From Desulfurispora thermophila DSM 16022 (GTDB taxonomy: Bacteria > Bacillota > Desulfotomaculia > Desulfotomaculales > Desulfurisporaceae), in assembly GCF_000376385.1 (NCBI RefSeq), contig NZ_AQWN01000002.1, positions 186,115 to 250,114 of the forward strand: a stretch of DNA of 64,000 nt. The letters are read 5' to 3'. Below are positions 27,216 to 35,132 of the stretch, one piece after another (position 1 is the first letter of the stretch; each line of letters opens with the position of its first letter). The notes under the pieces were generated by a model. That model worked only from the letters and a program-made list of their open reading frames with translations. It ran no database searches and had not been told where the DNA came from. Both the position numbers and the translations under genes were made by a program.

Positions 27216-28760
27216 ATGGTGCCTGGCGAACAGGAAATGGTCATTGTGCTTGATTTTGGTGGTCAATACAGTCAATTAATTGCCCGCCGGGTGCGGGAAT
27301 TGAACGTCTTTTGCGAAATGCTACCCTACAATACGCCGCTATCCGAACTGGTCCAAAAAAGACCGCGGGGTATTATTTTTTCCGGCGGGCCGGCCAGTGT
27401 CTACCAGGAGGGTGCACCCTGGTGCGACCCGCAGATCTACAACCTGGGCATTCCCATTCTGGGGATATGCTATGGCATGCAGCTGATGGCCCGCCAGCTG
27501 GGCGGTGTGGTGCGGCCGGCCGAGCAGCGGGAGTACGGCAAGATCATGCTGGAAAAAACAGCGCCAGGTGATGCATTGCTGGGTTGCCTGGGCGATTGGG
27601 AGCAGTGCTGGATGAGCCATGGCGACCTGGTGGAGCAGGCGCCGCCCGGCTTTACAGTCACCGCCCGCACGGAAAAGACACCGGTGGCGGCCATGGCCGA
27701 CCCGACCCGCCGCCTGTACGCCGTTCAGTTTCACCCGGAAGTGGTGCACACGCCGCGCGGCATGGATGTGTTGCGGGCATTTTTATACGATGTCTGTGGC
27801 TGCAGCGGTAGCTGGAATATGGGCTCTTTCATCGATACGGCTGTGGCCGAGATTCGCGCCCAGGTGGGAGACAAGCCCGTGCTGTGCGCTTTGAGCGGTG
27901 GGGTGGACTCCTCGGTAGCCGCCGTGCTGGTGCACCGGGCGGTGGGAGAGCGGCTGACCTGTGTTTTTGTAGATCATGGTCTGTTGCGCCTGGGCGAGGC
28001 CCAGCAGGTGGTCAGCACCTTCCGGGAGAAATTCAAGATCAACCTGATCCATGTGGATGCTTCAGAAAGGTTTTTAAGCAAGCTGGCCGGTGTTACCGAC
28101 CCGGAGCTGAAACGGAAAATAATTGGCCGCGAGTTTATTCGTGTTTTTGAGGAGACCGCGCGCAGTCTGGGTAAAATAGATTTTCTGGTGCAGGGTACGC
28201 TTTATCCCGATGTGGTGGAAAGCGGTACGGCCACGGCGGCCGTGATCAAGTCGCACCACAACGTGGGCGGTTTGCCTCCGGATATGCAGTTTATCTTGGT
28301 GGAGCCGTTGCGCTGGCTGTTCAAGGATGAAGTGCGGGTGCTGGGCAGCCACCTGGGTCTGCCCGACGAGATCGTCTGGCGGCAACCCTTCCCCGGCCCC
28401 GGTCTGGCCGTACGCATCATCGGTGAGGTGACGCCCGAACGGCTGGAAATCCTGCGCCGGGCCGACGCCATTGTCACCGGCGAGATAGCCAGGGCCGGTT
28501 TGGGAAGGGAAATCTGGCAGTACTTTGCCGTGCTCACCGGCATGCGCAGTGTGGGCGTGATGGGCGATGAGCGCACCTATGCTTATACCGTGGCCGTGCG
28601 GGCCGTGCTCAGCCATGACGGCATGACCGCGGACTGGGCCCGCCTGCCCCACGAGGTGCTGGAGCGCATTTCCAATCGTATTGTCAGTGAAGTTCAGGGT
28701 GTCAACCGCGTGGTTTACGATATTACCTCCAAACCGCCGGCCACCATTGAGTGGGAGTAG
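27216..28760 (+). CDS. guaA: GMP synthase (glutamine-hydrolysing)
   Basis: GuaA converts XMP to GMP with ATP and glutamine. The 514-residue protein has a class I amidotransferase domain with Cys85 (ICYGMQ) and His173/Glu175 (QFHPEVVH). The ATP pyrophosphatase P-loop ALSGGVDSS lies at about 225-233, and the dimerisation domain ends in [12 protein letters not shown]. The last 18 bases before the final stop base recur at 32712-32729, where they would again encode the end of GuaA; the gene itself is intact. Confidence 0.97.
28742..28759 (+). repeat. Direct repeat, left copy (guaA 3' end; attL-like)
   Basis: The 18-base sequence CACCATTGAGTGGGAGTA encodes the end of GuaA and is repeated exactly at 32712-32729. 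Bases on either side differ. The two copies bracket an AT-rich segment, the pattern left by site-specific integration into a gene 3' end. Confidence 0.8.
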
Positions 28761-28819
28761 GACGGAAGTGGTGTAGTGCTTTGATTTGCAAGTATTAGAT
28801 GGAGTTTTGAACTGAGCAG

Positions 28820-28869
28820 TGGAGTATATGATTTCTAAGTGCTTTTAGAAAATCATGTGCTCCATTTTT
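28820..28869 (+). terminator. Long stem-loop terminator after guaA
   Basis: TGGAGTATATGATTTCTAA and TTAGAAAATCATGTGCTCCA form a long, slightly imperfect stem around a short loop, followed by TTTTT. It lies inside the island end, so it now terminates hpt-guaA although its composition is that of the island. Confidence 0.7.
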
Positions 28870-29064
28870 GCTTATCAAAGATAAGGACATTTGTCCTCCC
28901 AATTTATAAGCACCACTTATAAATCACATCATTAATTGATATTTCAACTCGGCCCTAAATGATGATATGTTTTAACTATAGATATGGTTTTCTTCCTGGG
29001 AAGCTTCAGAGGTAATTTTTTTTGTCACAAGAAACAATATTATTATTAATATTATTCGAGGCAT
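28870..29064. other. AT-rich non-coding stretch of the island, with one operator-like palindrome
   Basis: No plausible gene is visible. It contains AGGAC-ATTT-GTCCT (28883-28896) and a strong palindrome at 28902-28924, listed separately. A/T runs near 28990-29055 could serve as promoter DNA for the DsrE gene, but I cannot place consensus boxes with confidence. Confidence 0.5.
28902..28924. promoter_or_regulatory. Palindromic operator candidate upstream of the DsrE gene
   Basis: Perfect 9-base arms ATTTATAAG and CTTATAAAT are separated by five bases. The half-site TTATAAG recurs facing CTTAT at 30023-30035 upstream of yeiH. Such dyads are typical of LysR-type regulator sites, and a LysR gene ends this cluster; the link is inference. 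Confidence 0.45.
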
Positions 29065-29220
29065 TCTGCGTTTCATGAGGTGGGCCACGTGGTGTCCGCA
29101 GCTATGGTCGGCGGGAAAGTTGGCGCTGACAATGCAATTTTGGTGAAATTGGGGCGAGTGGCGCTATTATTCCCTGTAGCCCTGGTAATGGGTTATCTTT
29201 TTAAAAAGGAGGCATTTTTG
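29065..29220 (+). pseudogene. Fragment of a YeiH-family (UPF0324) transporter gene
   Basis: In one frame the DNA encodes AFHEVGHVVSAAMVGGKVGA and then LVKLGRVALLFPVALVMGYL. This matches the internal HEVAHVVAA...LTKLGRVALLIPV region of the intact YeiH encoded at 30108-31130. There is an in-frame stop at 29047, and everything N-terminal and C-terminal to this patch is missing. The frame runs without a stop into the DsrE gene, so naive calling fuses the two. Nucleotide divergence from the intact copy suggests an old paralogue rather than a recent partial duplication. Confidence 0.75.
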
Positions 29221-29616
29221 ATGGGCAAACTGAAAGTTCTTTTCCATTTAAACGAACCTGAAAGGTGGCAAAGGACACTTTTAAACGTCATTAATTTTGT
29301 TAAAGATGTAGGACAGGAGAATGCGGATATTGAGGTTGTGGCTAACGGTGCTGCGGTTTCTGCCTATATTGATAAATGCCAAATCGCAGGAGGTTCGGGG
29401 GAAACTCCAACGAGTTGTGGAAAAGCAAATGGAGAACTATACGAAGAAATGAATAAGTTAGCCCAAATGGGAATAAAATTTGTTGCCTGCCGAAACGCTC
29501 TTAGGATGCATTCCTTAGATGAAAACATGCTACCCCCTTTTGTCACGGTAGTTCCGGCGGGTATAACAGAGATTGCCAAAAAACAAGCTGAAGGATACGC
29601 GTATATCAAAGCCTAA
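29221..29616 (+). CDS. DsrE family sulfur-relay-like protein
   Basis: The protein (131 aa) starts MGKLKVLFHLNEPERWQRTL behind a strong AAAAAGGAGG, which fixes the ATG at 29221 rather than the in-frame GTG at 29080 in the YeiH remnant. It has the DsrE/DsrF-like alpha/beta fold signature, with a conserved Cys in KFVACRNALRMH at about 90 and VVPAGITEIAKKQAEGYAYI at the end. DsrE proteins carry or sense sulfane sulfur; the exact role here is unknown. Neighbouring YeiH and a YeiE/CysL-like regulator support a sulfur context. Confidence 0.82.
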   Translation: MGKLKVLFHLNEPERWQRTLLNVINFVKDVGQENADIEVVANGAAVSAYIDKCQIAGGSGETPTSCGKANGELYEEMNKLAQMGIKFVACRNALRMHSLDENMLPPFVTVVPAGITEIAKKQAEGYAYIKA

Positions 29617-29846
29617 GCGGAAAGAAACAGTTGAAAATTACTCAAGCGACCCTTAATGCCGTCTCATTTGCCAGGTCTTTGCTCATTTTAAATTCCCTCC
29701 GGCTTTTTGTTTTAACCTGCCAGAGGGGCTCACCGGCCAACAATGCAAACTATGTGGGTATTTGTCTATATGTACAGGCCGGCTGCATGGCAGGCCAGTC
29801 CTTAACGTTTCGCCCTAAATATGCTATGATCATGATACCTGTTGTG

Positions 29847-29904
29847 GAGGCTTTTGAGTTGTTAAATGCTGGGGACATTTAACGGGCAACTCAAAGCCTC
29901 TTTT
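29847..29904 (+). terminator. Strong rho-independent terminator after the DsrE gene
   Basis: GAGGCTTTTGAGTTGTTAAATG pairs with the segment ending CATTTAA...CAACTCAAAGCCTC across a short loop, with one small interruption, then TTTT. This is one of the longest stems in the window. It could equally be a palindromic insertion scar. Confidence 0.7.
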
Positions 29905-30022
29905 AATTTTCCCCCAAAAGATTGCCTGAGGAAAATTTTAGCACTTACATAAACAGCCATGCAATATGAGCATTTAAGCGGCAATTGGATTGAGCAGAGA
30001 CACCATAAATATAAGTACTTCA

Positions 30023-30035
30023 TTATAAGACTTAT
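30023..30035. promoter_or_regulatory. TTATAAG/CTTAT dyad upstream of yeiH
   Basis: TTATAAG faces CTTAT with one base between them, about 75 bases before the yeiH start. The half-site equals that of the palindrome at 28902-28924. It may be a binding site for the LysR regulator encoded in this cluster (inference). Confidence 0.35.
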
Positions 30036-30107
30036 TATAACCAGGTATTTCCCATCCCGCCAATTGTTGTGGTAAAGTTTAGAAAGAAATTTGAGAGGAG
30101 GATTGAG

Positions 30108-31130
30108 ATGCAGGTTGCAGTTCTTCAGCGTAAAAATTTTCTTCACGGTAGCATCCAGGGACTCGTTCTAACTATGGTAGTGGGAGTCCTTGCCCAAAAC
30201 ATCATTCGCGTACCTTTTTTGTCAGTACCTGGGCCAATGGTTATTGCTATTTTGGTTGGAATGGCCTGGCGGGCACTTATGGGAATCCCCAAATATGCCA
30301 ACACAGGAATAAATTTTGCAAGCAAGAGACTTTTGCGCTATGGTATTGTTTTAATGGGTGTTCGTCTCAACCTGGATGCTATTATTGCTACAGGGCCCCA
30401 AATTATTCTACTCGATGCATTAATAATTATTATGGCCGTTGTTATTATATGCTATCTGGGAAAAATACTGGCTGTTGAAGAAAAATTAGCCTTGCTGACA
30501 GCAGTAGGGACAGGAATATGTGGGGCCGCTGCTGTTGCTGCGGTCGCGCCAACGATTAAAGCCAATCAGGATGAAACAGTGGTAGCTGTGGCGAGTGTTG
30601 CTGTTCTGGGGACCGCTGGTAGTATTTTATACATTTTGTTAAAACCATTTCTGGGGTTGGGTTTAGATGAATACGGTATTTTTGTGGGGGCAACCTTACA
30701 CGAAGTAGCCCATGTGGTAGCAGCATCTCAGCCGGCAGGTGATTCTGCGGCCAATATGGCTATTTTAACCAAACTCGGTCGGGTGGCACTATTAATTCCT
30801 GTTACTCTTGGGATTAGTCTTTGGTTTAACCTGAGGGATGCAGTGAAGGAACAAAGCGCTGGATCGCAGGGCTTGACAATTCCCTGGTTTATTTTCGGCT
30901 TTTTAGGCCTGAGTTGTCTCAATACCTTTGGTTTAATTCCTCCTGATCTTACTTCTGTGATGCTTAACATCAGCAGTCTTCTTATGATAATTGCGATGGC
31001 GGGCATGGGACTTAGCGTAGATATTGTGATGTTTAAGCGCATGGGAATAAGGTCGCTGTTTATCGGATTTGTTGGCTCACTAGTTATCTCAGTTGTCGGC
31101 TTATTAGTTATTCGTACCCTGCATTTTTAG
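30108..31130 (+). CDS. YeiH/UPF0324 family transporter (putative sulfur-anion exporter)
   Basis: The 340-residue protein has about ten membrane helices and the family motif LHEVAHVVAASQPAGDSAAN with LTKLGRVALLIPVTLGISLW. UPF0324 proteins are annotated as putative sulfate exporters. In Escherichia the homologue yeiH is next to yeiE, whose product responds to sulfite. The ATG at 30108 follows GAGAGGAGG. It is followed after 18 bases by a stress protein gene and then a LysR gene in one probable operon. The transported ion is inferred. Confidence 0.87.
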   Translation: MQVAVLQRKNFLHGSIQGLVLTMVVGVLAQNIIRVPFLSVPGPMVIAILVGMAWRALMGIPKYANTGINFASKRLLRYGIVLMGVRLNLDAIIATGPQIILLDALIIIMAVVIICYLGKILAVEEKLALLTAVGTGICGAAAVAAVAPTIKANQDETVVAVASVAVLGTAGSILYILLKPFLGLGLDEYGIFVGATLHEVAHVVAASQPAGDSAANMAILTKLGRVALLIPVTLGISLWFNLRDAVKEQSAGSQGLTIPWFIFGFLGLSCLNTFGLIPPDLTSVMLNISSLLMIIAMAGMGLSVDIVMFKRMGIRSLFIGFVGSLVISVVGLLVIRTLHF

Positions 31131-31148
31131 GGTTTGGGGGGTTTTAAA

Positions 31149-31652
31149 ATGCTGAGCAAGTTAGCAGAAGAACTGTTGGCCAAAAATCAACTGGAGGCTG
31201 TGGATACATCCATTAACAGAATTATCCTGGCAGTGGACGGTTCTGCTCCGGCTATTGAAGCAACTAAATATGCAATGGGTTTAGCTATACGGAATAGCTC
31301 AGAAATAATTGCTGTATTTGTTGATCCAGATGGAGAAGATGCAATCATCCCAGAGCACGAATGGGAGCTACTGGCCCAAAAGACTAAACGAGTTCGCTAT
31401 GGATTAGCAGGCTTAAAGCTTGCCCATCAATACGGTAAAGCATACTGTATAAATGTGAAATTGTTTCTTTTAAGCGGCAATCCCGTGAAGCAAATCATTA
31501 ACGTTGCTGAAAAAGAAGGAGCTGACTTAATCATTACAGGAGATACCGGCCTAACAGGAATCAAAAGAATAGCTTTAGGAAGCATTGCTGAAGCTGTAGT
31601 GGAAGCATCTGACATTCCCGTTCTAGTTGTTAAGAGGAGGAAAGTACTATGA
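31149..31652 (+). CDS. Universal stress protein (UspA family)
   Basis: The 167-residue protein shows RIILAVDGSAPAIEATKYAM at the N terminus and the ATP-binding-type C-terminal motif ITGDTGLTGIKRIALGSIAE followed by IPVLVVKRRK. The G-x2-G-x9-G-S/T pattern indicates the nucleotide-binding subfamily. GGGGGG lies eight bases before the ATG. Lying between yeiH and the regulator, it probably belongs to the same stress response. Confidence 0.9.
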   Translation: MLSKLAEELLAKNQLEAVDTSINRIILAVDGSAPAIEATKYAMGLAIRNSSEIIAVFVDPDGEDAIIPEHEWELLAQKTKRVRYGLAGLKLAHQYGKAYCINVKLFLLSGNPVKQIINVAEKEGADLIITGDTGLTGIKRIALGSIAEAVVEASDIPVLVVKRRKVL

Positions 31653-32599
31653 ATTTGTACCAATTTCATATTTTTAAAACAGTGGCTGATAAAAAGAGTT
31701 TTTCCGGGGCTGCACAAGCCCTTTTTATCTCTCAGCCGGCAGTCAGTATGCATATCAAATCTCTGGAAGACCATTTTGGCACAAGATTGTTTGATCGTAA
31801 CACTCAACAAGTGACCATCACAGAAGCTGGTCGTATTCTATATGAATATGTGGAAAAGATCTTGTTATTGCTGGATGAAGCAGAAAAAGATATTTCCGCT
31901 CTCACCGGCTGTATACGAGGCACCTTATCGGTAGGAGCAAGTTTTACCCTGGGCGAATACGTGATTCCGCAAGTTTTGGGGTGCTTTAAAAAACAACATC
32001 CCCAGGTAAGGGCTTTACTAAAGGTGACTAATACAGAACAAATAGTTAAGCTGGTGTTAGAGCAGGCGCTGGACTTAGGGCTTGTGGAAAGTCGCGTGGA
32101 TAACTTTGAATTGATTGCAAAACCTTTTATGAAAGACGAATTGATTGTTTTGCTTCCCGTCGACCATCCCTTGGCTGGCAAGGAGTTTATCTTAATTGAC
32201 GAACTTGTGGCGTTGCCTTTTATCTTGAGAGAGCAAGGGTCGGGTACAAGGAAGATAACCGAAGATAGATTAAAGGAAGCAGGTATAAATCTATCTGAAT
32301 TAAACGTGGTTATGGAATTAGGAAGTACCGAAGCGGTAAAGGAGGCTGTGGAAGCCGGGTTTGGCGCAACAATTATTTCTAAATGGGCAGTACAAAAAGA
32401 ATTGAAGTTGGGTACTCTCGTTGCGGTTAAAGTCAAGGAGGTTTCTCTAGTACGGAAGTTTTATGTAATTTATAATAAAAACAAGTCCCAAACATCGGTA
32501 GTGAAGGAATTCATATCTTTTCTGAGTTCATTTTGCTTTCAGGAGCATTCAGTCGAAGCCATGAATCGCAAATACAAGCGATGTTACGTGGGTGGTTGA
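31649..32599 (+). CDS. LysR family regulator, YeiE/CysL-like
   Basis: The 316-residue protein starts with the LysR winged helix (FHIFKTVADKKSFSGAAQAL then SQPAVSMHIKSLEDHFGTRL), followed by the substrate-binding domain (LSVGASFTLGEYVIPQVLGC; EQGSGTRKITEDRLKEAG). These are typical of the CysL/YeiE group. Linked YeiH in the same orientation, with a four-base overlap to the stress protein gene, suggests it controls this operon. The ligand is unknown. Confidence 0.9.
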   Translation: MNLYQFHIFKTVADKKSFSGAAQALFISQPAVSMHIKSLEDHFGTRLFDRNTQQVTITEAGRILYEYVEKILLLLDEAEKDISALTGCIRGTLSVGASFTLGEYVIPQVLGCFKKQHPQVRALLKVTNTEQIVKLVLEQALDLGLVESRVDNFELIAKPFMKDELIVLLPVDHPLAGKEFILIDELVALPFILREQGSGTRKITEDRLKEAGINLSELNVVMELGSTEAVKEAVEAGFGATIISKWAVQKELKLGTLVAVKVKEVSLVRKFYVIYNKNKSQTSVVKEFISFLSSFCFQEHSVEAMNRKYKRCYVGG

Positions 32600-32711
32600 G
32601 GCATTTTGGAAAAAGACCGGGCAGGAAAATAAATGATCGTTATTGAATAGTTCAAAGCAAATTCAAAAATGTTCGCTTTACACGCCACATGTCTTTGTAA
32701 GCTAGAGCTAT

Positions 32712-32729
32712 CACCATTGAGTGGGAGTA
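32712..32729 (+). repeat. Direct repeat, right copy (duplicated guaA end; attR-like)
   Basis: This is the exact second copy of the 18-base guaA terminal sequence, followed by A rather than G, so it would read ...IEWE-stop (TAA). Eight bases later comes the -35 box of the purine operon. It therefore probably preserves the original guaA-to-pur junction. Confidence 0.8.
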
Positions 32730-32775: not shown

Positions 32776-32890
32776 GGGAGAAAGTGCGCCTAGGGTTCCG
32801 CGCATCAGGTGGTGCGGCTGGACCGAGCGGCGCAAGACAGCCCCGGGAAGGGGCGTCACACCGGTAGGGATAAAAGCCCAGGCGGTAGGT
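32776..32890 (+). promoter_or_regulatory. ykkC-class riboswitch, probably the PRPP-sensing subtype
   Basis: The conserved ykkC core is present in order: CTAGGGTTCCG (32790-32800), CTGGACCGAG (32818-32827), ACACCGG, and GGGATAAAAGCCC (32867-32879). The ykkC superfamily includes guanidine-, ppGpp- and PRPP-binding aptamers. The gene set downstream (purE-B-C-F-M-N-H-D) is that of PRPP riboswitches. The 3' part of the aptamer shares bases with the 5' arm of the following terminator, so ligand binding should prevent termination (ON switch). I looked for the guanine aptamer sometimes found in tandem and did not find one. Confidence 0.85.
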
Positions 32891-34885: not shown

Positions 34886-35132
34886 GACGGGTGTGCCTTT
34901 TCTGAGCGAGCCCGTCTGGAGTACCGGTTGCAACACCCGGTGAGGTCGCGGTAGCGGGCCGGGAGGCGCGGACAGGACGTCCGCGCCAGCCCCAGCTGAG
35001 ACAGGATGTCGAATCTGGGGCGGCCCGGCCTGCCCGCGACCAAGCCGTTGGTGTTGCCCGGTACGTAATTCGGACGAGCGAAGGATGCACACCCGATACT
35101 GACAAGCTAAAGTCGAAATTGCGCTGTAGTAT
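34886..35132 (+). repeat. Large structured intergenic repeat (element A) between purB and purC
   Basis: The gap between purB and purC is filled by an imperfect inverted-repeat element. The left arm (about 34886-34963) and the right arm (about 35021-35098) are reverse-complementary in blocks such as GTACCGG...GCAACACC and GGTCGCGG...GGGCCGGG. Between them sit two nested hairpins, GGCGCGGAC/GTCCGCGCC (34965-34987) and CCCCAG/CTGGGG (34990-35020). Left-arm sequence recurs at 42117-42194 and right-arm sequence at 47836-47921. It encodes no convincing protein and would be transcribed inside the pur mRNA. Confidence 0.75.

Follow-up and report, generated by a model that had tools for sequence, protein, structure and literature searches.

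What a small gene set lodged between guaA and purE does for a sulfate-reducing bacterium is the question raised by a low-GC interval in the genome of Desulfurispora thermophila DSM 16022. The interval was analysed within a stretch of 64,000 nucleotides (nt) of contig NZ_AQWN01000002.1 (positions 186,115 to 250,114, forward strand; hereafter the window, whose numbering is used below unless a contig or locus is named). It carries the genes dsrE, yeiH, usp and lysR and probably represents a horizontally acquired, self-regulated resistance module for sulfite or a close sulfur oxyanion, best read as a variant of the YeiE-YeiH regulator-transporter pair to which a universal stress protein (Usp) has been added. 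The proposed sulfite role rests on studied homologues and not on the island's own proteins. In Salmonella, YeiE senses sulfite and activates yeiH, and deletion of yeiH increases sulfite sensitivity about 20-fold; sulfite resistance is what has been published for that organism, export of sulfite by YeiH being only proposed (PMC12880088). In Hyphomicrobium, yeiH was induced 526-fold with thiosulfate, its LysR neighbour came second and sulfite export was proposed (PMC11582611). Of the two roles suggested in a preliminary description of this DNA, defence against sulfite agrees with these studies and defence against sulfane sulfur has just the family membership of DsrE in its favour.

The guaA island and its genes

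The guaA-purE interval, 3,970 nt long with guaA (27216-28760) on one side and purE (33014) on the other, is an integrated island that lacks its own integrase (Table 1). A search for the flanking 18-nt repeat with up to three mismatches gave two copies in the window against 0.07 expected, and those two are exact. The attachment sites of GIsul2, which inserts at guaA in other bacteria, share the core GAGTGGGA (PMC9376610), and the direct repeats at the end of guaA contain this core here as well. The GC content of the island is 41.8% compared with 57.5% for the rest of the window, a value below those of all 261 equal-length samples of that rest, and in three other genomes (G054, G022 and G085) a similar riboswitch-like leader comes shortly after guaA, with no insert in between. 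The repeats with the GIsul2 core, the low GC content and the insert-free junctions together identify an integrated island, in line with the earlier view of these genes as island cargo. A phage or anti-phage origin was ruled out by the absence of PADLOC matches and of relatives in viral contigs.

Table 1. Features of the island and its borders (positions in the window; G numbers denote compared genomes).
Feature	Position	Strand	Evidence or remark
attL, CACCATTGAGTGGGAGTA, last codons of guaA	28742..28759	+	exact repeat containing GAGTGGGA
Integrated island, attR copy included	28760..32729	.	between guaA and purE leader; 18-nt repeats, low GC
Relic of second yeiH	28904..29204	+	promoter and start 28904-29049; C-terminal piece 29074-29204
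Putative operator 1, TATAAG-N6-TTATAA ... GATATTTC, upstream of dsrE	28905..28945	+	kept in G015 and G045; one change in G054
dsrE, DsrE-family protein, 131 amino acids	29221..29616	+	PF02635; Shine-Dalgarno AAGGAGG at 29206
Hairpin then T-rich DNA, possible terminator between dsrE and yeiH operon	29845..29901	+	-24.8 kcal/mol, z only -1.65; weak
Transferred core, operator 2 to near lysR stop	30005..32557	+	nt identity to G054 and G046 versus guaA
Putative operator 2, TATAAG-N7-TTATAAG ... GGTATTTC, upstream of yeiH	30010..30051	+	alignment of 13 yeiH promoters; pattern searches
yeiH, PF03601/UPF0324 transporter, 340 amino acids	30108..31130	+	PF03601 277.7 bits (gathering 24.5)
usp, universal stress protein, 167 amino acids, predicted nucleotide motif GDTGLTGIKRIALGS	31149..31652	+	PF00582 85.5 bits
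lysR, putative YeiE-type LysR regulator, 316 amino acids	31649..32599	+	HTH_1 and LysR_substrate
attR, second 18-nt repeat copy	32712..32729	+	directly before purE promoter and leader

The four protein families named in the preliminary description are all present, and the four genes are intact, lie on the same strand and have ribosome-binding sites. The DsrE protein matches PF02635 with 37 bits (cut-off 22.7), has the PDB relatives 1l1s and 2pd2, and contains the expected conserved cysteine, Cys90, which corresponds to the family cysteine and is invariant in an alignment of eight relatives. The 18-nt gap between yeiH and usp and the 4-nt overlap between usp and lysR make it likely that these three genes form one operon, as had been proposed. 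A search by sequence for a solved structure of YeiH gave nothing above chance; its predicted model (pLDDT 80, pTM 0.80) was closest to the folds of AspT (Z 16.0), NapA (Z 15.6), CitS and SbtA, with Z-scores that only just exceed the level common for helical models. The model appears to suit a secondary transporter, perhaps with a fold of the NhaA/CitS/ASBT kind, while saying nothing on the substrate. Usp is predicted to be a universal stress protein of the ATP-binding kind, and the motif G-x2-G-x9-G[ST] was present in each of the nine Usp proteins examined from such modules. The LysR protein, with PDB relatives 7erp, 8sbh and 8sbf, aligns with 7erp and 8sbh, ligand domains of the YeiE type, and retains GSGTR and the glutamate aligned with the one replaced in the 7fdf chain of a YeiE relative.

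A second YeiH cluster was observed elsewhere in the same genome (G000:C1:98000-116000, locus L079), with two genes of the YeiH family (about 25-27% identity to the island YeiH), two Usp-like open reading frames (ORFs) and a kinase-regulator pair.

Operators, relatives and transfer of the module

The island contains two putative operators, one before each transcription unit. Operator 2 or a degenerate form of it was found in 13 of 13 aligned yeiH promoters, and the block before dsrE has the same spacing as in yeiH promoters. Within the window, the short form TATAAG-N6,7-TTATAA has no matches apart from these two sites (0.01 expected), and a composite pattern gave two matches in the whole genome, both in the island, with none in the reversed control. 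Across 113 genomes of the order Desulfotomaculales the composite pattern gave 10 matches (6 in the reversed control), nine of which precede yeiH or a dsrE/RACo cassette; the match in G047, near phosphate-type genes, is probably due to chance. The same arrangement was also seen before yeiH in three genomes of a family outside the order (f61). The half-operator TATAAG-N6,7-TTATA was uninformative on its own (8 genome-wide matches versus 8 in the reversed control), and of the patterns tried only the composite one is specific. The restriction of this pattern to the two island sites and its conservation before yeiH and dsrE argue that the island LysR acts on its own two units through these putative operators. 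The regulator would also resemble YeiE in having a yeiH neighbour under a common conserved putative operator. Separately, an exact palindrome, TATAAGTGCCACTTATA, nearly identical to operator 1 and lacking the TATTTC part, lies right after two small toxin-antitoxin-like ORFs at G000:C1:93173.

In a phylogenetic tree, yeiH-linked LysR proteins including Escherichia coli YeiE fell into one superclade (support 100/99) apart from CysB, OxyR and CynR; Bacillus subtilis CysL was left out of this comparison. The superclade also takes in LysR proteins not adjoining yeiH and its deep forks lack resolution.

The gene set recurs in other genomes, as the preliminary description had asked of it. The order yeiH-usp-lysR was found in eight genomes from five families of Desulfotomaculales (G000, the window's own, with G002, G022, G042, G046, G054, G085 and G087), carriers in the order including Desulfallas and Desulfofundulus, and a yeiH-lysR pair lacking usp is present in G043 and G081; where a neighbourhood reaches a contig end (G002, G015, G087), it was joined by inference. 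Outside the order, yeiH and lysR are adjacent in 20 of 25 sampled close-yeiH loci, and the pair is also found in Bradyrhizobium, Peptoclostridium, Spirosoma, Pseudomonas, Listeria and Bacillus plasmid records. The core DNA is 95.4% identical to that of G054 and 94.2% to that of G046 compared with 73.3% and 67.4%, respectively, for guaA, and the dsrE block is 95.2% identical to that of G045 (guaA 70.2%). At 93-95% between families against 67-73% for guaA, the far higher identity of the module DNA points to horizontal movement. In G022 the module (72.1%) and guaA (72.8%) are equally distant, and only some of the carriers therefore support recent transfer between families. That such sets are transferable, as first suggested, is also borne out by a lysR|yeiH-usp set that is 99.9-100% identical across seven Bacillus, Niallia and Paenibacillus plasmids and has a recombinase and a Tn3-family transposase gene as neighbours (L141 2920-8909, L214 5522-11774); in Hydrogenibacillus yeiH, lysR and usp stand side by side. 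An integrase in G046 (L025 4101-5285), considered as the module's own, is separated from it by a tRNA-Thr gene and so need not belong to it.

Weighing the module against other readings

Three features had escaped the preliminary description: the decayed second yeiH before dsrE, the two shared operators and the lack of an integrase. The two pieces of the relic share 69% and 79% nt identity, respectively, with L039 (yeiH-lysR, UBA2598); the second piece, which covers PF03601 positions 187-229, is 73% identical to L032. The ORF upstream of dsrE begins with a fragment of the second yeiH, and G045 retains more of the same relic. G323, a genome from outside the order, has dsrE directly after an intact yeiH, with lysR convergent. 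From the relic and this intact pair, the island dsrE most likely took over its promoter from a yeiH that has since been lost. The wider cassette varies between genomes, being dsrE-RACo-DUF202-yeiH as far as the contig end in Desulfoscipio geothermicus (G015), yeiH relic-dsrE-RACo-DUF202 plus the end of lysR in G045, RACo-DUF202-yeiH-usp-lysR in Desulfallas sp. Bu1-1 (G054) and yeiH-usp-lysR-dsrE in G002. The RACo and DUF202 genes were lost from the window cassette or were never there, and a search of 29651-30005 for their remains gave no match. The relic, the missing RACo and DUF202 genes, the lack of an integrase and the broken copies in other carriers would fit an island that is the degraded rest of a larger cassette rather than a working module. 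This seems very improbable, since all four genes are intact, both operators are kept and the core proteins are 92-96% identical to their counterparts in two other families.

Two observations concern these cassettes: a RACo-like gene (reductive activator, ASKHA), mostly with DUF202, accompanies dsrE/yeiH in several genomes (L024 5016-7052, L027 8826-10874, L111 4984-7023, L075 2187-3776), and G015 (L027, L028) has two partial yeiH copies, the second with usp and most of lysR deleted.

Several results weigh against a sulfite module of the YeiE-YeiH type. The island LysR scores 229.9 bits on the YeiE equivalog model NF040889, below the cut-off of 480, and by this rule is not an orthologous YeiE; its best family is instead NF040786, the "selenium metabolism-associated" model, on which it reaches 294.9 bits (cut-off 250). 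YeiH, a clear member of PF03601, scores 196.3 bits on TIGR00698 and does not reach the cut-off of 232.6 for that "YeiH subfamily". Several carriers, with sites that deviate by at least one base, escape the exact composite pattern. None of the 25 sampled close-yeiH loci outside the order has usp beside yeiH-lysR, so that Usp would not be essential. No integrase ORF was found between the two repeats, which leaves present mobility of the island unproven. Finally, dsrE is a unit of its own, with 491 nt between it and yeiH downstream, and in the order the majority of its relatives lie apart from yeiH.

The family scores bear on whether another anion (selenite, an organosulfonate, thiosulfate or sulfate) is sensed by a LysR of the same group and exported or imported by YeiH. 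The NF040786 assignment would favour this, as would the YeiH family name, merely "putative sulfate export", and the presence of selD in all 14 genomes tested. The name of NF040786 is however not decisive, because even E. coli YeiE reaches 211 bits on the model, which thus fails to separate the groups, and two further LysR proteins of the same genome exceed its cut-off and adjoin other genes. Moreover, selD, the only selenium gene compared, is on contig C10 and the module on C2, and the studied yeiH-linked LysR proteins respond to sulfite or thiosulfate, making another anion quite unlikely.

The position of dsrE raises the question of whether the module is yeiH-usp-lysR alone, with dsrE a chance neighbour within the island. 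Its separate unit and the possible terminator would suit this, as would the TatD-like, DUF202 or RACo genes that dsrE adjoins elsewhere, mostly with no yeiH beside. The same putative operator nevertheless precedes both units, dsrE adjoins yeiH or lysR in G002 and G323, belongs to the same cassette in G015 and, in G045 and G083, has remnants of yeiH or lysR as neighbours. A chance association is on this evidence somewhat unlikely, and dsrE is retained here as part of the candidate sulfite module.

Next to the island, the purE leader (32779-32886) gave a Guanidine-I (ykkC-type) riboswitch match of 60.7, just below the gathering score of 63; a phosphoribosyl pyrophosphate-type variant would suit purE better. 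A TwoAYGGAY RNA match (57.5 bits, gathering 43) lies at 34915-35071 between purB-like and purC-like genes.

Proposed working and comparison with known systems

On the preferred reading, the island would have entered the 3' end of guaA through site-specific recombination, its own integrase having been lost or never carried. LysR would bind sulfite, its ligand by analogy with the studied regulators, and act on both island copies of its operator, which are conserved, turning on yeiH-usp-lysR and dsrE. YeiH, as an elevator-type anion transporter, may release excess cytoplasmic sulfite, and DsrE, judging from its family, may accept sulfur from persulfides or polysulfides arising under the same stress. 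Usp, made in step with YeiH, might through nucleotide binding adapt transport to the cell's energy state. The title of PDB 8zor has the PII-like protein SbtB holding SbtA, and the mycobacterial Usp Rv2623 binds a transporter (abstract of PMC5549992); a similar partner role for the present Usp is a guess. A stricter version, in which a portable closed-circuit valve has LysR on the two island operators only and on no host gene, YeiH exporting overflow sulfite, and Usp sitting on the transporter like SbtB on SbtA to stop export at low energy, is unlikely.

The host background is compatible with such a role. The genome has dsrA (592 bits), as do 12 of 12 close-yeiH carriers of the order compared with 63 of 101 other genomes (p 0.005, uncorrected for kinship). 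In a host with dissimilatory sulfite reductase the module could serve as an overflow valve when sulfite formation outpaces its removal by DsrAB. In Spirosoma linguale (pSLIN02), a sulfite dehydrogenase-like gene (SorA score 242 bits) comes after lysR-yeiH, and a DsrE protein is encoded close by; this plasmid stretch (L173 660-7338) brings together cytochrome c, DsrE, lysR, yeiH and the SorA-like gene. Bacterial sulfite resistance is little known, the first sulfite phenotype of yeiH, in Salmonella, dating from 2026. Here a YeiE-YeiH-type pair forms mobile cargo of sulfate reducers, for which sulfite is the central respiratory intermediate and not an outside poison. The putative operator, being short, conserved and present twice, makes the regulon directly testable, and Usp, by its constant position between the transporter and regulator genes, offers a concrete handle on what universal stress proteins do.

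Among known systems, YeiE-YeiH of Salmonella and E. coli (PMC12880088) likewise pairs a YeiH-family transporter with an adjoining YeiE-type LysR, probably as regulator and transporter. In E. coli, however, the genes are divergent, lack Usp and DsrE and form a chromosomal core locus, whereas in the island one probable operon runs from the transporter through Usp to lysR at its end, and dsrE lies under a twin putative operator. Hden_0834/0835 of Hyphomicrobium denitrificans (PMC11582611) also combines yeiH with an adjacent LysR, strongly induced there by an oxidisable sulfur compound and proposed as a sulfite exporter, but in a sulfur oxidiser, with neither an island nor a Usp in the published passage. 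The lysR|yeiH-usp sets of Bacillus, Niallia and Paenibacillus plasmids comprise the same three protein families and adjoin transposition genes; they differ in a YeiH that is 35% identical, a divergent lysR, the lack of dsrE and a transposon context instead of a guaA island. GIsul2 and other guaA 3'-end islands (PMC9376610) share the insertion site and the direct repeats with GAGTGGGA, but GIsul2 carries an integrase and resistance genes, whereas the island described here has 3.97 kb and no integrase.

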